From Jiangella asiatica (GTDB lineage Bacteria; Actinomycetota; Actinomycetes; Jiangellales; Jiangellaceae): DNA of 64,000 bases. The DNA lies in assembly GCF_004349065.1 (NCBI RefSeq), contig NZ_SMKZ01000020.1, forward strand, positions 1 through 64,000, in the 5' to 3' direction. Under the pieces are notes generated by a model, which saw only the letters and a program-made list of their open reading frames with translations, did no database searches and had not been told where the DNA came from. The first letter of the stretch is position 1; every line of letters starts with the position of its first letter. The position numbers and the translations under genes are program-made. Below, in pieces: positions 8,765-29,606 of this stretch.

Positions 8765-9052
8765 ATGGGAGTGCCCGAGAGCCGGGCAGCAGTGGCCGAC
8801 GCCGTGTCCGCACTGGAGACAGCGGTGGCAGCCCTGCGCCGGCACTACGGTGACACCCTCGGCGTTCGGCGGCTGCTCAGTGACGTGGCCAGGCTCGGCG
8901 ACGATCTCGCGGAGCTCGGCGACCCGCTGCCCGGGCATCGGCCAGAACCGGTCCGGCAGCTCGAGGTCGTTCCCGACGAGCCGTACGACCGGAGCATGTG
9001 GGCCGGCGCCGACGACGAAGGGCTCGGCGCCCCGGACCGGCGGGCACCATGA
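8765..9052 (+). CDS. Small hypothetical protein upstream of sdh operon
   Basis: 95 aa, start ATG with GGGAGG six bases upstream. The protein is largely alpha-helical in its first 55 residues (an AVADAVSALETAVAAL heptad-like helix) and has an acidic C-terminal tail without Cys or membrane segments. I recognise no domain. It lies 149 bp before, and in line with, the succinate dehydrogenase genes, so it may be cotranscribed with them. The good ribosome site and codon usage support a real gene. Confidence 0.65.
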   Translation: MGVPESRAAVADAVSALETAVAALRRHYGDTLGVRRLLSDVARLGDDLAELGDPLPGHRPEPVRQLEVVPDEPYDRSMWAGADDEGLGAPDRRAP

Positions 9053-9201
9053 TCGCCGTCCGCACCGCCCGAGCCACGCTCCCCGCTCGCGCACGTTCAG
9101 CGCCCACCTGAGCGCCCCGCACGACGCCCGGCCGCGGGTCCGCCCGCACGAGCCCACCGCACGCCCTCCCCGTCCACCGTCCTTCTGAAAGAGCGCACAA
9201 G

Positions 9202-9999
9202 ATGGCCGCCCCCACCGGAACGCAATCTCCGACCCGGGCCCGCATCACCGCACGCAGCCTGCGCACCGACCGCTGGTGGGTCTACCCCAGCTTCACCGCG
9301 CTGGTGCTGCTCGCCTTCGTCGTCTATGCGACGTACCGGGCCTTCGTCGGCGAGCACTACTTCATCGAGCCGTACCTGACGCCGCTCTACTCGCCGTGCG
9401 TCACCACCGAATGCGTCGAGGGCTCGGCCCACCTGGGCACCTGGGTGGGTGACTGGTGGCCGCTGTCGCCGGCCGTGCTCATCCTGATCATCCCGCTGAG
9501 CCTGAGGCTGACCTGCTACTACTACCGCAAGGCCTACTACCGCTCGTTCTGGATGTCGCCGCCGGCATGCGCCGTCGCCGAGCCACACCGCCGCTACACC
9601 GGCGAGACGCGGTTCCCGTTGATCCTGCAGAACATCCACCGGTACGCGCTGTACCTCGCGCTCGCCTACAACGTGCTGCTGACGTACGACGCGGTGATGA
9701 GCTTCAAGTCACCAGAGGGCGAGTGGGGCCACATGGGCCTGGGCTCGCTGATCCTGGTGGTCAACGCGGTGCTGCTGGGTCTGTACAGCCTGTCGTGCCA
9801 CTCGTGCCGGCACATCATCGGCGGCCGGCTGCGCAGCTTCTCCAAGCACCCGGTGCGCTATCGCGCCTGGGGCATGGTGTCCGTGCTCAACGGCAGACAC
9901 GCCCAGCTCGCCTGGGCATCCCTGGTGTGGGTCGCGTTCACCGACTTCTACATCTGGATGGTTGCTTCCGGCACCTGGTCCGACCCGCGGTTCTTCTGA
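9202..9999 (+). CDS. Succinate dehydrogenase membrane anchor, Sdh1-type SdhC
   Basis: Membrane subunit of a succinate:quinone oxidoreductase, 265 aa, with about five predicted helices (for example SFTALVLLAFVVYATY and LILVVNAVLLGLY). Its size and place directly before sdhA and sdhB match the mycobacterial Sdh1 arrangement, where the anchor is a single protein of about 270 aa. Two Cys/His clusters stand out: PCVTTEC in the first loop and SCHSCRH near residues 201-207. In characterised Sdh1 enzymes this subunit carries a membrane-embedded Rieske-type cluster; these residues are candidate ligands (inference). Confidence 0.85.
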   Translation: MAAPTGTQSPTRARITARSLRTDRWWVYPSFTALVLLAFVVYATYRAFVGEHYFIEPYLTPLYSPCVTTECVEGSAHLGTWVGDWWPLSPAVLILIIPLSLRLTCYYYRKAYYRSFWMSPPACAVAEPHRRYTGETRFPLILQNIHRYALYLALAYNVLLTYDAVMSFKSPEGEWGHMGLGSLILVVNAVLLGLYSLSCHSCRHIIGGRLRSFSKHPVRYRAWGMVSVLNGRHAQLAWASLVWVAFTDFYIWMVASGTWSDPRFF

Positions 10000-10016
10000 G
10001 GAGCACGAGCAACACC

Positions 10017-11843
10017 ATGACTGAGATCGAACGGCACAGCTTCGACGTCCTCGTCGTCGGTGCGGGCGGGGCCGGGCTGCGCGCGGCCATCGCCGCTCAC
10101 GACGCCGGCGCGCGGGTCGGCATCGTCTGCAAGTCCCTGCTGGGCAAAGCGCACACCGTCATGGCCGAGGGCGGCATCGCCGCGGCCATGGGCAACGTCT
10201 GGCAGGAGGACAACTGGAAGGTGCACTTCCGCGACACCATGCGTGGCGGGAAGATGCTCAACCACTGGCGGATGGCGCAGTTGCACGCGCAGGAGGCGCC
10301 GGACCGCGTCCGCGAGCTCGAGGAGTGGGGGGCGCTGTTCGACCGCACCCCCGACGGGCTCATCTCGCAGCGCGACTTCGGCGGCCACCGCTACGCGCGC
10401 CTCGCGCACGTGGGCGACCGCACCGGCCTGGAGCTCATCCGCACCCTGCAGCAGCGCGCCGTCGCCCTCGGCATCGACGTGTTCATGGAGTGCACGGTCA
10501 CCGAGCTGGTCAAGGACGGCGACACTGCGACCTCGACCGACAAGCGTGTCTCGGCCGGTGGCCGCATCGCCGGCGCGTTCGGGTACTGGCGCGAGTCCGG
10601 CCGGTTCGTGCTGTTCGAGGCCCCGTCGGTCGTGCTGGCAACCGGCGGCATCGGCAAGTCGTACAAGGTGACGTCGAACTCGTGGGAGTACACCGGCGAC
10701 GGTCACGCTCTGGCCCTGCAGTCAGGCGCCAGCCTGGTGAACATGGAGTTCGTGCAGTTTCACCCGACCGGCATGGTCTGGCCGCCGTCGGTGAAGGGCA
10801 TCCTGGTCACCGAGTCGGTCCGCGGCGACGGCGGCGTGCTGCGCAACAGCGAGGGCCGCCGGTTCATGTTCGACTACATCCCCGAGTTCTTCAAGGCCGA
10901 GACGGCGGACTCCGAGGACGAGGCCGACCGCTGGTACGAGGACAAGACGAACAACCGCCGCCCGCCGGAGCTGCTGCCCCGCGACGAGGTCGCCCGGGCC
11001 ATCAACGCCGAGGTCAAAGCAGGCCGCGGGTCACCGCACGGCGGGGTCTTCCTCGACATCGCCTCCCGACGCACACCGGAGTACATCCGGCGCCGGCTGC
11101 CGTCCATGTACCACCAGTTCAAGGAGCTGGCCGACGTCGACATCACGGCCGAGCCGATGGAGGTGGGCCCGACCTGCCACTACGTCATGGGTGGTGTCGC
11201 GGTCGACCCCGACACCGGCGAGTCGGCCGTCCCCGGCCTCTACGCCGCGGGCGAGGTGGCCGGCGGCATGCACGGCGCGAACCGGCTCGGCGGCAACTCG
11301 CTGTCCGACCTGCTGGTGTTCGGCCGGCGCACCGGCCTCAACGCGGCCTACGCCGCGGCCCGGCTGGCAACCCGTCCGTCAATCGACGACGACGTGGTGC
11401 GCGCGGCGTCGGAGCGGGCGCTGGCGCCGTTCGGCATCGAGGGCGGCGAGAACCCGTACGGCGTCCAGCAGGATCTGCAGGAGGTCATGCACAACCTCGT
11501 CGGCATCATCCGGCGCGAGGACGAGATGCGGCAGGCGCTGGACGACCTGACGAAGTTCAAGGAACGCATCGGCCGGCTCAGCGTGGAGGGCCACCGGCAG
11601 TACAACCCGGGCTGGCACCTGGCCATCGACCTGCACAACATGCTGCTGGTCAGCGAATGCATCGCGCGTGCGGCGCTGGAGCGGACCGAGAGCCGCGGCG
11701 GTCACACCCGCGACGACTTCCCGGCCACCGACGACGCCTGGGGCAGGCTCAACCTGCACTGCCGGCTCGACGGCGACGATGTCGCCGTCACCCGGGAACC
11801 GCTGCCGGAGATGCCCGACGAGCTGCGCGAGCTGTTCGGCTGA
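10017..11843 (+). CDS. sdhA: Succinate dehydrogenase/fumarate reductase flavoprotein subunit
   Basis: Catalytic flavoprotein, 608 aa, that oxidises succinate to fumarate. It has the dinucleotide fold (DVLVVGAGGAGLRAAIAA), His46 in AHTVMAEGGI as the covalent FAD site, the substrate-site FVQFHPTGM, and the C-terminal NSLSDLLVFGRR motif. ATG at 10017 lies 17 nt after the anchor gene. A much longer open frame that starts at 9456 belongs to the wrong frame of sdhC and is rejected. Part of the three-gene Sdh1-type operon. Confidence 0.96.
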   Translation: MTEIERHSFDVLVVGAGGAGLRAAIAAHDAGARVGIVCKSLLGKAHTVMAEGGIAAAMGNVWQEDNWKVHFRDTMRGGKMLNHWRMAQLHAQEAPDRVRELEEWGALFDRTPDGLISQRDFGGHRYARLAHVGDRTGLELIRTLQQRAVALGIDVFMECTVTELVKDGDTATSTDKRVSAGGRIAGAFGYWRESGRFVLFEAPSVVLATGGIGKSYKVTSNSWEYTGDGHALALQSGASLVNMEFVQFHPTGMVWPPSVKGILVTESVRGDGGVLRNSEGRRFMFDYIPEFFKAETADSEDEADRWYEDKTNNRRPPELLPRDEVARAINAEVKAGRGSPHGGVFLDIASRRTPEYIRRRLPSMYHQFKELADVDITAEPMEVGPTCHYVMGGVAVDPDTGESAVPGLYAAGEVAGGMHGANRLGGNSLSDLLVFGRRTGLNAAYAAARLATRPSIDDDVVRAASERALAPFGIEGGENPYGVQQDLQEVMHNLVGIIRREDEMRQALDDLTKFKERIGRLSVEGHRQYNPGWHLAIDLHNMLLVSECIARAALERTESRGGHTRDDFPATDDAWGRLNLHCRLDGDDVAVTREPLPEMPDELRELFG

Positions 11844-11886
11844 CCCGCGCCGGACGACACGACAGATCACCGCCGAGGAGGCGTTA

Positions 11887-12675
11887 ATGGGATACGACCT
11901 TGACATGAAGGTCTGGCGCGGCGACGCCAGCGGCGGTGAGCTGGTGGACTTCACCGTCGAGGTGGAGGAAGGCGAGGTGGTCCTCGACGCCCTCCACCGC
12001 ATCCAGGCCACCCAGGCCGGCGACCTCGCCGTCCGCTGGAACTGCAAGGCCGGCAAGTGTGGCTCGTGCAGCACCGAGATCAACGGCAAGCCGCGGCTGG
12101 CCTGCATGACCAGGCTGTCCACGTTCGAGGAGGGCGAGACGGTGACGGTGACGCCGCTGCGCGCCTTCCCCGTCGTCCGCGACCTCGTCACCGACGTGTC
12201 GTACAACTACAAGGTCGCCGAGAAGGTGCCGCCGTTCGCGCCGGAGCCGCGGCCGGCCGACGGCGCCTACCGGATGCAACAGGTCGACGTGGAGCGGGGC
12301 CAGGAGTTCCGCAAGTGCATCGAATGCTTCCTGTGCCAGACGGTGTGCCACGTCATCCGCGACCACGAGGAGAACAAGCCGTCCTTCGCCGGCCCGCGGT
12401 TCTTCCTGCGCTACGCCGAGCTCGAGATGCACCCGCTGGACACCAACGACCGTCGTGAGCTGGCTCGCGAACAGGCCGGAATCGGCCTGTGCAACATCAC
12501 CAAGTGCTGCACGGAGGTCTGCCCTGAGGGCATCAAGATCACCGACAACGCGATCATCCCGATGAAGGAGCGCGTCGCCGACCGCTCCTACGACCCGGTG
12601 ACCTGGCTCGGCCGCAAGATCTTCCGCCGCGACCAGCTCCCGGACGCTCAAGTCCCTCGGACCCCCGGGGATTGA
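11887..12675 (+). CDS. sdhB: Succinate dehydrogenase iron-sulfur subunit
   Basis: Electron-transfer subunit, 262 aa. The N-terminal ferredoxin fold binds [2Fe-2S] through C53, C58, C61 and C73. The C-terminal half carries two further Cys groups, CIECFLCQTVC and CNITKCCTEVC, for the [4Fe-4S] and [3Fe-4S] centres. ATG at 11887 has GAGGAGG five bases upstream; the open frame runs further 5' only inside sdhA. Last gene of the operon, followed at once by a hairpin repeat that could end the transcript. Confidence 0.95.
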   Translation: MGYDLDMKVWRGDASGGELVDFTVEVEEGEVVLDALHRIQATQAGDLAVRWNCKAGKCGSCSTEINGKPRLACMTRLSTFEEGETVTVTPLRAFPVVRDLVTDVSYNYKVAEKVPPFAPEPRPADGAYRMQQVDVERGQEFRKCIECFLCQTVCHVIRDHEENKPSFAGPRFFLRYAELEMHPLDTNDRRELAREQAGIGLCNITKCCTEVCPEGIKITDNAIIPMKERVADRSYDPVTWLGRKIFRRDQLPDAQVPRTPGD

Positions 12676-23652: not shown

Positions 23653-23819
23653 GGCTCCGAATCCTCTCAGGACCGTCAGCCCCCGGAGTGGCGTCCTCCG
23701 CCACATGACATGATTCGCCAAGGACGTGCACGGTGGAGCCATGGTGGCGACGACTGCCGCGGACGCACCATCGTCGGGGAGACCACATCCCGCGCCGCAC
23801 CGCACGAGAGGGGCCGACC

Positions 23820-24707
23820 GTGACCCTGGGAACCGCTGAGCCGCACCTGACCGCGTCGTCGCACCCAACCCTCGCCGACCGCTACGACCAGGACGGATAC
23901 GTCATCCTTGAGGGCGTCTTCGACCGCAACGCACTGACCGCGCTGCTCGCCGAGACCGTCCGCATCTGCCGCGGTGAGTTGGGCGAGATCGACGGCGCCA
24001 TCGCTTCGTCGCCGGACGAGAGCGACAACGAGGTGATCCGCCGGTTCCTGTGCATCCACTACCCGCACAAGCTGTCGAGCCTGATGCTCGATACGATGCG
24101 CCATCCCGTCATCGTCGACGCACTCACCCAGGTGATCGGGCCGAACGTCAAGGCCATGCAGTCCATGCTCTTCGTGAAGGCCGAGGGCAAGCCCGGCCAG
24201 GCCTGGCACCAGGACGAGATGTTCATCCCGACCCGCGACCGGTCGCTGACCGCCACCTGGATCGCGCTGGACGACGCCACGGTCGAGAACGGCTGCCTGT
24301 GGGTGCTGCCCGGCTCGCACCGCCCCGGCATCATCTACCCCAACCGCGAGCACGACGACCCCCGCTACGACTGCACCGTGGAGTCCTTCGACTTCCCGTA
24401 CGCCGACGCCGACGCGGTGCCGGTGGAGCTCAGCGCCGGGTCCGTGCTGCTGTTCAACGGCTACCTGCTGCACAAGTCGCTGCCCAACACCGGGCGCCAC
24501 GGCTACCGGCGGGCGCTGGCCAACCACTACATGAGCGCGGAGTCGCTGCTGCCGTGGACACTGCCCGAGGACGGCACGACCATGGCGCAGGCCGACTTCC
24601 GCGACGTCGTCCTCGTGGCCGGCCGCGACCCGTACGCCTACAAGGGCATCGAGGACCACCGCCGGCCGCGCATCCGGCCCGACCGCGAAGGCGGCTGCGA
24701 CCGATGA
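23820..24707 (+). CDS. Phytanoyl-CoA dioxygenase family protein (Fe(II)/2-oxoglutarate oxygenase)
   Basis: 295 aa from GTG 23820. The PhyH double-stranded beta-helix is visible: DQDGYVILEGVFD at the N-terminus, the metal-binding HQD in QAWHQDEMFIPTRD, LWVLPGSHRPG, and a later His in LLHKSLPNTGRHGYRRAL with an Arg for 2-oxoglutarate. Upstream in-frame codons reach 23733 but the GTG with GAGAGGGG before it is preferred. It is followed after 10 bp by an AraC-type regulator in the same operon. The substrate is unknown. Confidence 0.9.
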   Translation: MTLGTAEPHLTASSHPTLADRYDQDGYVILEGVFDRNALTALLAETVRICRGELGEIDGAIASSPDESDNEVIRRFLCIHYPHKLSSLMLDTMRHPVIVDALTQVIGPNVKAMQSMLFVKAEGKPGQAWHQDEMFIPTRDRSLTATWIALDDATVENGCLWVLPGSHRPGIIYPNREHDDPRYDCTVESFDFPYADADAVPVELSAGSVLLFNGYLLHKSLPNTGRHGYRRALANHYMSAESLLPWTLPEDGTTMAQADFRDVVLVAGRDPYAYKGIEDHRRPRIRPDREGGCDR

Positions 24708-24717
24708 CGGAGGCGCG

Positions 24718-25620
24718 GTGACGGGTGGTCCGGCACTCGACGGCGATGAGCCGGCGGACGGGCTGCGGGTGCGGCTCGTCCCCCGGCTCGGCCCGACGGT
24801 CGCTGACTACCCGCCCGGCTCCACGTTCGGCCCGCGGCTCGCGCGGACCTACGAGTTCGTCTGGATCCTCAGCGGCAGCGCGACCTGGCTCTGGGACGGC
24901 ATGACCGTGCCGCTGGCGCCCGGCACGCTGCTGCTGGTCCGCCCGGGCATGCGCGACACCTTCCGCTGGGACCGGCGCCGCCCGACCCGCCACGCCTACG
25001 TTCACTTCCGGCTGTCCGGCCCGGCCGCCAGTGCCGTCGAGTGGCCGATCGTACGCGACCTCACCGCCAGGCCGGACCCCATGGGCGCACTGTGCCAGTA
25101 CCTGCTCTGGCTGGGCTCGGCGTGCCCGCCGGCGTGGCGCGAGCACGTGCGCGAGACCCTCCGCCTGCTGGTGCTGACGTTCGCCGCCGCGCCGCCGCGG
25201 TCGGAACGCCGCGACGGGCCCGCCATGCTGCCGGAGCCGATCGTCGCCGCGATCAGCAGTGTGCGTCTGGCCTGGGCCGACGGCGTAGCACGTCCGGTCA
25301 CGCTGGCCGACCTCGCCGACGCCGCCGGCGTCTCCATCAGCACGCTGTGCCGGGTGTTCCGCCGCCAGTTCGGCATCGGGCCGGTGGCCGCCCTTGAACG
25401 GCTGCGACTGGCCCGAGCCGAGCCGCTGCTGTGGATGAGCAACCTGTCGCTGAACGCGGTCGCGCTGCAGTGCGGCTTCGCCGACGCCTACCACTTCTCG
25501 CGCCGCTTCCGGGCCATCTACGGCGTCGCACCGAGCGCGTTCCGGTCCGCCGCGCCCGAGACGGCACCGCCGTCGCCCCTGGACGCCAGCGGCCTCGCTG
25601 CCCTGGAACCCCTCCTCTGA
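24718..25620 (+). CDS. AraC-family transcriptional regulator
   Basis: 300 aa from GTG 24718 with GGAGG four bases upstream. An N-terminal cupin-like sensor (TYEFVWILSGSATWLWDG, then APGTLLLVRPGMRDTF) is joined to two C-terminal HTH units: VTLADLADAAGVSISTLCRV and LNAVALQCGFADAYHFSRRF. It is translated 10 bp after the PhyH-type oxygenase and likely controls that gene or a linked sugar locus. Confidence 0.92.
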   Translation: MTGGPALDGDEPADGLRVRLVPRLGPTVADYPPGSTFGPRLARTYEFVWILSGSATWLWDGMTVPLAPGTLLLVRPGMRDTFRWDRRRPTRHAYVHFRLSGPAASAVEWPIVRDLTARPDPMGALCQYLLWLGSACPPAWREHVRETLRLLVLTFAAAPPRSERRDGPAMLPEPIVAAISSVRLAWADGVARPVTLADLADAAGVSISTLCRVFRRQFGIGPVAALERLRLARAEPLLWMSNLSLNAVALQCGFADAYHFSRRFRAIYGVAPSAFRSAAPETAPPSPLDASGLAALEPLL

Positions 25621-25791: not shown

Positions 25792-26049
25792 TCAGCGCCG
25801 CCGACGAAAGCGCGGCGGGGCTAAGGGGTCGACGTGGACGTAGTCGTAGTTGGGCTTGATCTCCTCGTTGAGGTAAGCGCCCATGCTGTCGGCGGCCAGC
25901 AGCGCATCGACGTCCAGCGGCTCGACGTCGAAGTAGCGGTAGACCTCGCCGGAGACGAACTCGACCTCGAGCGTCCACGACCGGAGGTCGTACCCCACCG
26001 ACCGTAGTGCCGACGACGAGACCGGCCAACGCCTGATGTCGTCCATCAT
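25792..26049 (-). CDS. KTSC domain protein
   Basis: 85 aa. The KTSC fold signature is clear: SSSALRSVGYDLRSWTLEVE, then FVSGEVYRYFDVEPLDVDAL and DSMGAYLNEEIKPNYDY. These small proteins are found alone or attached to phage/lysyl-tRNA-synthetase-related proteins; their function is not settled. Start at ATG 26049 with AGGA eight bases upstream; an 11-codon extension would overlap the divergent promoter of the ABC exporter. Confidence 0.85.
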   Translation of the reverse strand: MMDDIRRWPVSSSALRSVGYDLRSWTLEVEFVSGEVYRYFDVEPLDVDALLAADSMGAYLNEEIKPNYDYVHVDPLAPPRFRRRR

Positions 26050-26100: not shown

Positions 26101-26129
26101 TTGTCACGCGACGACGCCAAAGCTAGGCT
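26101..26129 (+). promoter_or_regulatory. Promoter of the ABC exporter operon, leaderless
   Basis: TTGTCA (26101-26106), 17-bp spacer, TAGGCT (26124-26129). The first plausible start codon, GTG 26140, falls 11 nt after the -10 box and no ribosome site precedes it, so transcription and translation probably begin together. Confidence 0.55.
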
Positions 26130-26139
26130 GCTCGGTTTT

Positions 26140-27840
26140 GTGCGGCCCTTTCCCGATCCGGATCCCGGCCGGCCCGATCGTCTCACCCCCGGCCGCTACC
26201 TGTTCTGGCTGACCCGCCTGGAGATCGGCGTCGTCCTGCTCGGCGCGTTCTATGGGTGCCTGTGGCCGGTCGCGCAGGCGCTGGTGCCGTACGCCGTCGG
26301 GCGGGCCATCGACGACGGGCTGGCCGCCCGGGACCGCTCCGACCTGCTGCTGTGGGGCGGGATTGTCCTGGCACTCGGCCTGGTCCAGGCCGCGTCGGGC
26401 ATTCTGCAGGACCGCTGCGCGCTGGCCAACGCCCTCGGTGCGAGGTACCGGACGCTGCAGCTGGTGACCCGGCAGGCGGCGCGCCTCGGGGCGACGCTGC
26501 CACGGCGGGTGTCCGCCGGCGAGGTCATGAGCGTGGGAGTGTCCGACGTGACGCAGATCGGCCGGGCGCTGGAGATCAGCTCGCGCGGCATCGGGTCGGC
26601 CGTCACGATCGTGGTCATCGCCACCATCATGCTCGAGGCGTCCTGGCAGCTCGGGCTCGTCGTGCTGGCTGGTGTCCCGGTCATGGTGTGGGCGCTGTCG
26701 CTCCTGCTCCGCCCACTGATCGACCGCCAGTCCCGGCTGCGCGACCAGCAGTCGGAGCTGACCTCGCGCGCCGTCGACATCGTCGGAGGGCTGCGGGTGC
26801 TGCGCGGCATCGGCGGTGAGGAGATGTTCGCCGGCCGCTACCGCGAGGAGTCCCAGCGGGTCCGCCACGCGGGCGTCCAGGTCGCCCGGGTCGAGTCGTT
26901 GCTGGAGAGCACGCGGATGCTGCTGCCGGGCCTGCTGGTGGCGCTCGTCGTGTTCCTGGGCGCGCGGTACGTGCTCGACGGCGACCTCACCGGCGGGCAG
27001 CTCGTCGCGTTCTACGGCTACGCGGTGTTCCTCGCCGTCCCGGTGCGGCGCATCTCCATCGCCGCCGGGGTGGTCATGAAAGCGCACGTCGCCGCGCGAC
27101 GGGTCGTCGACCTGCTGGCGCTGGAACCGGAGCTGGCCTCAGGGCCGAAACGGCTCGAGGCGGCGGCATCGGACCTGCACGACCCCGCGTCCGGACTCGT
27201 CGTCGACGGCGGCAGGTTCACCGCCGTGGCTTGTTCGCGGCCGGCCGATGCCGACGCCGTCGCCGACCGGCTCGGCCGCTACACCGACTCCGACGTCACC
27301 TACGGCGAGCAGCCAATTCGCGACCTGGACCTCGACGACGTGCGCAGACACGTTCTCGTGGTGAGCAACGACGCGCGGCTGTTCGCCGGCGCCCTGCGCG
27401 ACGAGCTCGACCCGGCCGGGCGCGCCGACGACCACCGGCTGGACCGCACCGTCGACGTCGCCTCCGGCGCCGACATCCTCGAGGCGCTGCCCGACGGCCT
27501 CGACACCGAGATCGCGCCGGACGGGCGGGAGTTCTCCGGCGGCCAGCGGCAGCGGCTACGGCTGGCCCGGGCCCTCACGGTCGATCCCGAGGTGCTCGTG
27601 CTGGTGGAGCCCACCAGTGCCGTCGACGCCCATACCGAAGCGCGGATCGCCGAGCGGCTGGCCGCAGAGCGCACCGGACGCACGACCGTCGTCTTCAGCA
27701 CCAGCCCGATCCTGCTCGACCACGCCGACCGGGTCGTCCTCGTCGACGCGGGGAAGGCCGTGGCCACGGGCACCCACGCGGAGCTGATGGGCGACGAGCG
27801 CTACCGGGCGCTGGTCGCCCGCGAGGAGGGTGAGGCATGA
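26140..27840 (+). CDS. ABC exporter half-transporter with degenerate ATPase domain
   Basis: Fused membrane-ATPase subunit, 566 aa. The six-helix exporter domain spans about residues 20-310. In the ATPase domain the P-loop is gone (ACSRPADADAV at ~362-372 in place of GxxGxGKST), the Walker B Asp is Val489 (LVLVEPTS, Glu490 kept), and the H-loop His is missing (VFSTSP). The signature FSGGQ (465-469) is perfect. It can therefore donate a signature motif but should not hydrolyse ATP itself. It overlaps its partner by 4 bp (ATGA). A TTG at 26101 would extend it by 13 codons but overlaps the -35 box. Confidence 0.9.
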   Translation: MRPFPDPDPGRPDRLTPGRYLFWLTRLEIGVVLLGAFYGCLWPVAQALVPYAVGRAIDDGLAARDRSDLLLWGGIVLALGLVQAASGILQDRCALANALGARYRTLQLVTRQAARLGATLPRRVSAGEVMSVGVSDVTQIGRALEISSRGIGSAVTIVVIATIMLEASWQLGLVVLAGVPVMVWALSLLLRPLIDRQSRLRDQQSELTSRAVDIVGGLRVLRGIGGEEMFAGRYREESQRVRHAGVQVARVESLLESTRMLLPGLLVALVVFLGARYVLDGDLTGGQLVAFYGYAVFLAVPVRRISIAAGVVMKAHVAARRVVDLLALEPELASGPKRLEAAASDLHDPASGLVVDGGRFTAVACSRPADADAVADRLGRYTDSDVTYGEQPIRDLDLDDVRRHVLVVSNDARLFAGALRDELDPAGRADDHRLDRTVDVASGADILEALPDGLDTEIAPDGREFSGGQRQRLRLARALTVDPEVLVLVEPTSAVDAHTEARIAERLAAERTGRTTVVFSTSPILLDHADRVVLVDAGKAVATGTHAELMGDERYRALVAREEGEA

Positions 27841-29606
27841 GCGAGCTGCCGGTCGCCTCGATGCGGACGGTGCGTGCCCGCGCCCGACGCCTCGCCCTGG
27901 CCCATCCGCGTGAGCTGGCGGTCGTCGTCGCGTTGTACGCGCTGGGCGCCGCCTCCGGCCTGGCCGGCCCGTGGTTGATCGGCCGGCTGGTCGAGGACGT
28001 CACGCGCGGCGTGGACGACGTCAGTCTGGTCACCGCGCTGATCTGCGGGTTCATCGTGGCGCAGGCGCTGCTGACCGGCCTTGGGATGTACGCGGCGGCG
28101 CGGCTGGGCGAGAAGGTGCTGGCGCGGCTGCGCGAGGAGTTCGTGACCGACGTGCTCGCGCTGCCGCTGGGCACGGTGGAGCGGGCCGGCACCGGCGACC
28201 TGATCACCCGCACCACCCGCGACGTCGACCTGCTGGCCCGCGCCGTCCGGTACGCGATCCCGGAGACGCTGATCAGCACGCTGACGATCGCCCTCACGCT
28301 GGGCGGCCTCGTGATCATCGGCCCACTGCTGGCGCTGCCGTGCCTGGTGGCGGTGCCGACCCTGTGGGCGGCCACGCGGTGGTACCTGGCCCGGGCCCAC
28401 GCCGGCTACCTGCGCGAGAACGCCTCGTACTCGCAGATCGCCGAGGGCCTGTCCGAGACCGTCGACGGCGCCCGGACGGTGGAAGCGCTGCGGCTGGGCG
28501 ATCGGCGGTTCGAGCGGGTCAACCGCGACATCGCCGCCTCCTACGCTGCCGAGCGCTACACGTTGCGGCTGCGGACGGTGTACCTGCCGACCATCGACAC
28601 CTCGTTCGTCCTCCCAGTGGTGGCCACACTGGTCATCGGCGGCCTGTTCTACCTGGAGGGCATGGTCTCGCTGGCCGCGGTCACCACGGCCACGCTGTAC
28701 ACCCAGCAGCTGCTCGTGCCGATCGACATGCTGCTGTTCTGGATGAACGAGCTGCAGATCGGTGGCGCGGCGCTGGCCCGGCTGCTCGGCGTCCGGCGGG
28801 ACGGTGGCGGTGCGGGTGATGACGGGAGTGACCGGCCGCGACCGCGAGCCGACGCCGTCGTCGGCGCCGATCCGGGACGCGGCGTCCAGGTCCACGGCGT
28901 GAGCTACGCCTACCGCGACGGGCGCGACGTGCTGCGCGGCGTGGACCTCGCGATCGCACCGGGCGAGCGGCTGGCGATCGTCGGCCCGTCCGGCGCCGGG
29001 AAGTCGACGCTCGGCAAGCTGCTGGCGGGCGTGCACCCGCCGCGGGCCGGCACCGTCACCGTCGACGGCGTCGCGGTCGGCGATCTGCCGCTCGATCGGC
29101 TGCGCTCGTCGGTCGCGCTGGTCACCCAGGAGCACCACGTGTTCCGCGGCACGGTGCGCGACAACGTGGTGCTCGGCCGGCCCGCCGCCGACGACGACGC
29201 CGTCGAGCAGGCGCTGCGTGCGGTGGACGCTTGGGGGTGGGCGTCGGCGCTCGGCCTGGGAACGGCGGTCGGCTCCGGCGGGGTGGAGCTGTCGCCGGCG
29301 CAGGCGCAGCAGCTCGCGCTGGCCCGGCTGGTCCTCGTCGACCCGCACACGCTGGTGCTGGACGAGGCGACGTCGCTGCTGGACCCCAGGGCGGCTCGGC
29401 ACCTGGAGCGTTCCTTGGCCGCGGTCCTGGCCGGGCGTACCGTCATCGCGATCGCGCACCGGCTGCACACCGCGCACGACGCGGACCGGGTCGCGGTCAT
29501 GGACGACGGCCGGATCGTGGAGCTCGGCTCACACGACGAGCTGGTCGCGGCCGGCGGCGCCTACGCCGCGCTGTGGCGGTCGTGGCACGGCGACCACTCC
29601 GGGTGA
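27837..29606 (+). CDS. ABC exporter half-transporter with intact ATP site
   Basis: 589 aa, six-helix exporter domain then an ATPase domain with P-loop GPSGAGKST (383-391), Q-loop in VTQEHHVF, Walker B LVLDEATS (Asp509, Glu510) and H-loop His541. Its own signature is degenerate: LSPAQAQQL at 485 instead of LSGGQ. Together with the preceding gene this makes a heterodimer with one competent ATP site (this Walker A plus the partner's FSGGQ). An Asp/Gly/Arg linker at ~320-345 separates the domains. Substrate unknown. Confidence 0.93.
   Translation: MSELPVASMRTVRARARRLALAHPRELAVVVALYALGAASGLAGPWLIGRLVEDVTRGVDDVSLVTALICGFIVAQALLTGLGMYAAARLGEKVLARLREEFVTDVLALPLGTVERAGTGDLITRTTRDVDLLARAVRYAIPETLISTLTIALTLGGLVIIGPLLALPCLVAVPTLWAATRWYLARAHAGYLRENASYSQIAEGLSETVDGARTVEALRLGDRRFERVNRDIAASYAAERYTLRLRTVYLPTIDTSFVLPVVATLVIGGLFYLEGMVSLAAVTTATLYTQQLLVPIDMLLFWMNELQIGGAALARLLGVRRDGGGAGDDGSDRPRPRADAVVGADPGRGVQVHGVSYAYRDGRDVLRGVDLAIAPGERLAIVGPSGAGKSTLGKLLAGVHPPRAGTVTVDGVAVGDLPLDRLRSSVALVTQEHHVFRGTVRDNVVLGRPAADDDAVEQALRAVDAWGWASALGLGTAVGSGGVELSPAQAQQLALARLVLVDPHTLVLDEATSLLDPRAARHLERSLAAVLAGRTVIAIAHRLHTAHDADRVAVMDDGRIVELGSHDELVAAGGAYAALWRSWHGDHSG

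Follow-up and report, generated by a model that had tools for sequence, protein, structure and literature searches.

Two adjacent genes, hereafter A and B, in a 64,000-nucleotide stretch of the Jiangella asiatica genome (the window: positions 1 to 64,000 of contig NZ_SMKZ01000020.1, NCBI RefSeq assembly GCF_004349065.1) encode the two halves of a putative adenosine triphosphate (ATP)-binding cassette (ABC) exporter, one of which has no recognisable nucleotide pocket. Comparisons of related sequences support the view that the P-loop-less A is conserved throughout a family, in which it seems to have arisen once, and is not the oddity of a single genome. We regard it as quite probable that the two proteins are obligate partners in a heterodimeric exporter driven by a single composite ATP site, the second site serving as a nucleotide-free protein hinge.

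The frames of A and B are adjacent and both open, and the stop codon of A overlaps the start codon of B in an ATGA. Translation of A begins either at a TTG at 26101 (579 residues) or at a GTG at 26140 (566 residues), the start adopted in the first-pass annotation. Both proteins score above the Pfam cut-offs for ABC_membrane and ABC_tran, the transmembrane domain (TMD) preceding the nucleotide-binding domain (NBD); for A the E-values are 7e-28 for ABC_membrane and 4.8e-9 for ABC_tran, the latter matched solely over profile positions 39–137. The first-pass annotation, made from the letters alone, had described A as lacking Walker A, the Walker B Asp and the H-loop His while keeping FSGGQ, and B as keeping its catalytic motifs with LSPAQ in place of LSGGQ. 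Our motif reading (Table 1) and the family counts given below agree with both descriptions and lengthen the list of losses in A from three to five, as the aromatic A-loop residue (Tyr) and the Q-loop Gln are gone as well. The A-loop Tyr is present in B (SYAYR). As had also been proposed, the losses sit on one composite site, made of the Walker A and B motifs and the A-, Q- and H-loops of A together with the signature of B. One complete consensus ATP site is left, to which B contributes Walker A and B and the Q-, H- and A-loops and A contributes SGGQ.

Table 1. Positions and states of the A and B genes, their motifs and the upstream neighbours in the window
Feature	Positions	Strand	State	Family count or remark
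Gene A	26101..27840	+	Half-transporter without recognisable nucleotide pocket (TMD and pseudo-NBD)	Open frame
Gene B	27837..29606	+	Half-transporter; Walker A/B, Q-, H- and A-loops intact, LSPAQ replaces LSGGQ	Open frame, 589 residues
A, P-loop position	27223..27261	+	AVACSRPADADAV; Gly-rich loop and Lys both gone	Lys 0/135
A, Q-loop	27367..27369	+	Gln position is Asn (VVSND)	Gln 1/135
A, signature	27532..27546	+	FSGGQ retained; would complete the ATP site on B	SGGQ 135/135
A, Walker B and D-loop	27592..27627	+	VLVLVEPTSAVD; Asp to Val, Glu and D-loop Asp retained	Walker B Asp 4/135, D-loop Asp 135/135
A, H-loop	27688..27708	+	FSTSP; His to Thr, TSP turn instead	His 0/135, Ser-Pro 135/135
B, Walker A	28983..29009	+	GPSGAGKST intact	Lys 129/129
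B, Q-loop	29127..29129	+	Gln intact (LVTQE)	129/129
B, signature	29289..29303	+	Degenerate, LSPAQ	Second Gly 1/129, first Gly 6/129
B, Walker B and D-loop	29349..29384	+	TLVLDEATSLLD; intact (LVLDEATS)	Walker B Asp and Glu 128/129; one row ends at contig edge
B, H-loop	29457..29459	+	His intact (IAIAHRL)	128/129, one row cut off
PhyH-type dioxygenase and AraC regulator genes	23733..25617	+	In tandem
Small gene between the AraC gene and A	25795..26049	-	85 residues

An error at 27.22–27.26 kb hiding an intact P-loop had been named as the result that would overturn this picture. It is excluded, since each of the 11 further genomes searched within the genus carries a P-loop-less A that is 71–81% identical to the one in the window. 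As the state is common to these genomes and to the whole family, and as the frames are open, we rejected a sequencing, assembly or frameshift artefact, to which we assign practically no probability. A pseudogene was rejected as well, since the trait is conserved across the family and the frames are under constraint. Within the same genome, a comparison set of 20 further ABC halves or ATPases, a subset of its ABC proteins chosen by similarity, keeps the pattern G....GK[ST] without exception, so the loss of the P-loop goes beyond chance. In this comparison, the two proteins lacking the pattern are A itself and its paralogue in a second pair, on contig C37 (A at 10710–12455, B at 8998–10587), which shows the same gene order and the same losses. 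The paralogous A is 46% identical to that of the window, and the signature of its partner reads VGPAFAQ, not LSPAQ.

The family was assembled by first searching 22 genomes from the order, which found A in 21 at E ≤ 1e-80, including all 12 of the genus (the window's among them), and yielded a first set of 38 A and 38 B proteins with those of the window. This set was extended by 80 named genome loci and by regions from a phylum sample. After removal of 11 fragments, nine duplicates and one neighbouring half-transporter, and with two ordinary pairs set aside, 135 distinct A and 129 distinct B proteins were retained. All sets were gathered by similarity to P-loop-less proteins, so the counts describe this family and not ABC exporters at large. 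The Walker A Lys, the A-loop Tyr and the H-loop His occur in none of the 135 A proteins, the Q-loop Gln in one and the Walker B Asp in four (a count that depends in part on a search pattern discussed below), while SGGQ and the D-loop Asp are found in every one. All 129 B proteins have the A-loop Tyr, the Walker A Lys and the Q-loop Gln, and 128 each have the Walker B Asp and Glu and the H-loop His, the remaining row being truncated at a contig end. SGGQ is found in no B protein; the first Gly of the signature is kept in six, the second in one and both in none. The parts of the consensus site (Walker A and B and the Q-, H- and A-loops of B; the signature and D-loop Asp of A) are thus kept family-wide, the one cut-off B row aside.

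A and B each form one clade in a full tree built by a quick method from 58 rows (starred support of 100 each) and in a tree of the TMDs only (54 rows; 98 each, starred). The second tree leaves out the NBD motifs, so these cannot drive the separation of A from B. Both A and B divide into the same two clades, I and II. In a tree for which ordinary first subunits serve as the root, all A proteins without a P-loop fall into one clade (starred support of 100), whose halves are clade I, which holds the window pair, and clade II (99 each, starred). The simplest reading of these trees is that the P-loop was lost once, before the two clades split. A set of outgroup pairs (L208, L210, L265–L269, L273 and L274) keeps the P-loop in both subunits and has Asp for Glu after the Walker B motif of A and a SAG-type signature in B; most simply, the ancestor would have been an ordinary exporter with these same two features.

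In the phylum sample, 23 of 296 genomes match at E ≤ 1e-90, and the P-loop pattern is absent from A in 21 of them and present in two (G155 and G037); one of the 21, G063, has A only as fragments. A profile made from the distant, clade II members matches 80 of 396 genomes at 1e-85, many with ordinary-looking scores. Thirty loci from these matches divide into 24 in which the P-loop pattern is missing and six in which it is present, and 16 regions, a set that overlaps the first, into nine with a P-loop-less A and seven with an ordinary pair. No intermediate between P-loop-bearing and P-loop-less A was seen in these 30 loci and 16 regions, and the closest relatives found outside the family were ordinary heterodimers, whose P-loops are intact. 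A few A proteins (L200, L201, L213 and L272; also L206 and L264) retain the Walker B Asp (LDEP) despite the loss of the P-loop and H-loop. The D-loop of the clade II B partners in L202–L207, L209, L211 and L212 reads EATAEAG in nine of nine cases, the Asp being lost; as read from these sequences, the complementary loss reaches further in clade II than in the window, for this D-loop would face the missing P-loop of A.

Viral contigs gave no match to the family search patterns, and plasmids gave nine records, which either bear the label 'ABC transporter ATP-binding protein' or have no annotation. Neither protein of the window reaches the cut-off of any curated family among the 25 best listed by NCBIfam, and among the 60 solved structures listed of 451 matches to the A profile, only other ABC transporters were seen.

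AlphaFold2 models of A and B, built with 60 family rows, have mean predicted local distance difference test scores of 93.3 and 89.1, respectively. At the place of the P-loop, the model of A runs from a strand (residues 373–378) through two residues into a helix (381–391), whereas that of B has a strand (378–382), six residues and a helix starting at 389. With two residues joining strand to helix in A, against six in B, the phosphate-binding loop of A is predicted to be absent and not merely mutated. In fold comparisons, in which rows with Z scores within 1 of each other counted as tied, A matches chain A of MsRv1273c/72c (Z 28.4, root-mean-square deviation (r.m.s.d.) 4.7, 550 aligned residues), which we infer from the chain lengths to be MsRv1273c, as well as TM287 (Z 27.9, r.m.s.d. 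5.3, 544 aligned) and other exporters. The best row of B is IrtAB chain A (Z 31.3, r.m.s.d. 5.3, 546 aligned), and its rows also include the NBD of TM288 (Z 28.9, r.m.s.d. 2.0, 236 aligned), P-glycoprotein, ABCB6 and chain B of MsRv1273c/72c.

We propose that ATP binds to B through its Walker A and B motifs and its A-, Q- and H-loops and is clamped by the SGGQ of A, so that each closure of the NBDs would take one ATP. Closing would flip the TMDs outward, and hydrolysis by the Walker B Glu of B would reset the transporter. The opposite site should hold no nucleotide, because the P-loop, the A-loop Tyr, the Walker B Asp, the H-loop His and LSGGQ are all gone. It would stay empty throughout, and the pseudo-NBD of A would dock on B through protein contacts, forming a hinge in place of the ATP 'glue' discussed below. 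The dead site has invariants of its own: Thr529, Ser535, Pro536 and Leu539, round the former H-loop, are each present in 135 of 135 A proteins, and Pro381, at the former P-loop, in 125. On balance, we also favour the broader proposal that the family, in at least two clades of Actinomycetota, is permanently a one-ATP machine whose joint has its own conserved Pro and Ser-Pro, and which would need neither glue nor alternation between sites.

Ordinary heterodimers such as TM287/288, TmrAB, BmrCD and MsRv1273c/72c resemble A/B in having an exporter fold, two half-transporters, and a consensus and a degenerate site. They differ in that here A is without the P-loop, the A-loop Tyr, the Q-loop Gln, the H-loop His and, usually, the Walker B Asp. 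ATP has been found bound at the degenerate site of MsRv1273c/72c, according to the available text of PMC12038006. A review (PMC7756269), in its available part, describes degenerate sites as binding MgATP with an affinity comparable to that of canonical sites, regards the role that the degenerate site has taken on as unclear, and cites indirect evidence for ATP as a permanent glue that keeps this site closed over several cycles. Exporters of that class have altered Walker B and H-loop motifs in one subunit and an altered signature in the partner, and so do A and B; the P-loop able to hold ATP, however, appears to be missing here, as judged from the sequences (no Lys among the 135 A proteins) and from the model, which has no loop. 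The same source counts Pdr5 among the largest deviations, with Walker A Lys to Cys, Walker B Glu to Asn and H-loop His to Tyr in NBD1 and LNVEQ in NBD2 (PMC7756269). As in A/B, all motifs of one site are degenerate in a complementary fashion in Pdr5 and the fungal pleiotropic drug resistance (PDR) transporters. Unlike A/B, which are two chains of TMD–NBD order, these are single polypeptides ordered NBD–TMD–NBD–TMD, and their Walker A is present with single-residue changes. Against this background, the earlier description of a complete P-loop loss as extreme is fair.

Several observations weigh against a nucleotide-free hinge, or against parts of the argument for it. The Walker B Glu of A, which an ATP-free site would not need, is retained in 125 of the 135 proteins and replaced by Asp in the other 10; it may be kept for the shape of the D-loop. 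Its presence would also suit a second site that still binds ATP non-canonically, from the side of B or in a rebuilt pocket of A, leaving an otherwise usual degenerate-site exporter with glue, and the occupancy of such sites in known exporters (PMC7756269 and PMC12038006, in the parts available) points the same way. We consider this unlikely, given that A has lost the Lys and the A-loop Tyr in every member and the Gln and the Walker B Asp in all but one and four members, that no B protein carries SGGQ, and that the model of A has a two-residue turn where the phosphate nest would be. A further caution is that the 80 named loci were collected with the pattern [LA][VI]EPTSAVD, which biases the set toward a missing Walker B Asp; whole-protein searches, which used no motif patterns, contributed 58 A and 57 B proteins, and among these the Lys and His are found in 0/58 A proteins each, the Walker B Asp in 4/58 and the Lys of B in 57/57. 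Both models prefer chain B in most rows of the TmrAB entries, which leaves the correspondence of subunits unsettled by structure. The full tree places A among the first and B among the second subunits of ordinary heterodimers, but without starred support, and this kinship is weaker still in the TMD-only tree.

The remaining points of this kind concern constraint and gene pairing. The NBD of A has a ratio of nonsynonymous to synonymous substitution rates (dN/dS) of 0.39, about twice the 0.20 of the NBD of B, which indicates weaker constraint on A. In one locus, L128, B is split over two frames; in L260 and L261 it lies some 11 kb from A; and in L214 (G063:C5:1-7500) A is broken in two, with no B of at least 300 residues in the 7.5 kb covered, a state attributable either to decay or to an assembly error. 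The faster evolution of the A NBD and the broken A of L214 would fit an A that is decaying or purely regulatory, with B functioning as a homodimer. This is highly improbable: a B homodimer would have SGGQ at neither site, A keeps the SGGQ and D-loop Asp needed by the site of B in 135 of 135 proteins, and the two genes are kept together in almost every locus. A is accompanied by at least part of B in 103 of the 104 loci that were scanned, the exception being L214, and the start and stop codons of the pair overlap in 91 of the 130 loci in which both genes are complete (two of the 130 are ordinary outgroup pairs). Median dN/dS values (Nei–Gojobori; 12 genomes of the genus, 66 pairs) come to 0.38 (A), 0.36 (P-loop stretch of A) and 0.31 (B); by this measure A is under constraint and not in decay. 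A reading of the L260 and L261 A proteins as solo subunits was discarded, as B sits beyond a non-ribosomal peptide synthetase (NRPS) gene. In L275 and L276 an NRPS gene separates the subunits, in the order B, NRPS, A. In five loci of another genus, g8 (L166–L169 and L186), an extra exporter half with SAGQ and the P-loop pattern stands beside A–B, making three half-transporter genes.

Siderophore context was assessed for 14 clade II loci within a 6 kb radius, with six proteins or pieces from four of those loci as queries. Siderophore-type genes lie within this distance of the pair in 10 of the 14 loci, and in six of 10 when the four query-supplying loci are left out. In the window's clade, such genes adjoin the pair in none of the four named Jiangella loci (L082–L085), and two of the 80 named loci, all of which score as clade I (at least 714 with the A model), have a match to the siderophore queries, both of AMP-binding type only. 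Pfam matches in ten clade II neighbours include ornithine/lysine monooxygenase (two), formyl transferase, NRPS domains and phosphopantetheinyl transferase, together with FecCD, a periplasmic binding protein, an ABC ATPase, a siderophore-interacting protein and an esterase. From this context, siderophores are the likely substrate in clade II. For clade I, small molecules are plausible substrates. An all-against-all comparison of flanking frames from the 80 named clade I loci yielded clusters, many of them shadow frames, that each reached 28 loci at most, and no partner or substrate.

Two genomes of genus g8 (L275 and L276) carry, in order, an ATPase gene, a binding lipoprotein gene, B, an NRPS gene (3,652 or 3,632 residues), A and an opposite-strand esterase gene, which we take to be the arrangement of the cch (coelichelin) locus; the Pfam names for these coelichelin-like loci are those of L276. 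Their A and B show the same motif losses. Judged by gene order, they may be counterparts of CchI and CchG. Such pairs belong to clade II, whereas the window pair falls in its sister, clade I. CchGI (SCO0491 and SCO0493) of Streptomyces coelicolor is the presumed coelichelin exporter in the available text of PMC12161575, where we saw no remark on the motifs of the two proteins. RamA/RamB were considered as a relative and dropped, as the open-licence PubMed Central (PMC) literature returned nothing useful on them.

The siderophore genes that often adjoin clade II pairs, and the IrtAB chain as the top structural row of B (Z 31.3, tied with others), would suit an importer with an exporter fold, as IrtAB is for siderophores. 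The fold itself gives no indication of the direction of transport. We hold import to be improbable: many exporters of similar Z stand among the rows of B, several clade II loci already have uptake-type genes for a binding protein, FecCD and an ATPase, and CchGI is presumed to export coelichelin (PMC12161575, available part).

The pair in the window is flanked by the PhyH-type dioxygenase, AraC regulator and small genes on one side and by a mycothiol-S-transferase gene on the other, and these neighbours do not tell the substrate. An AraC-like gene before A is clear in L082, L083 and L042, unclear in L084 and not called in L085. The small gene, whose product presumably resembles a KTSC-type domain, has a counterpart of 74 residues, called at the corresponding position of each of the four named Jiangella loci. 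The contexts of four plasmid pairs differ (DpgABC and RiPP-type (ribosomally synthesized and post-translationally modified peptide) genes, a TetR gene overlapping A, and others) and share no common substrate. On a Streptomyces globosus plasmid (L215, 374314–394014), the pair follows a methyltransferase gene and lies near DpgABC and RiPP-type biosynthesis genes, and is possibly a natural-product exporter. In L217, on a Streptomyces clavifer plasmid, a TetR-type regulator gene shares four bases with the start of A, which hints at inducible efflux.

Degenerate and complementary sites are already known, up to Pdr5. We found no account of an exporter family with a P-loop-less subunit among open-licence PMC papers, most matches being judged by their listing. 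Clade II ties the family to siderophore clusters, one of them with an already named presumed exporter, CchGI. Our data suggest that A/B may serve as a compact model system for asymmetric ABC motors with a single site, and that the family is a natural test of whether ATP is needed in the second site. If its members pump, the ATP glue would be dispensable and one ATP could pay for the transport cycle.

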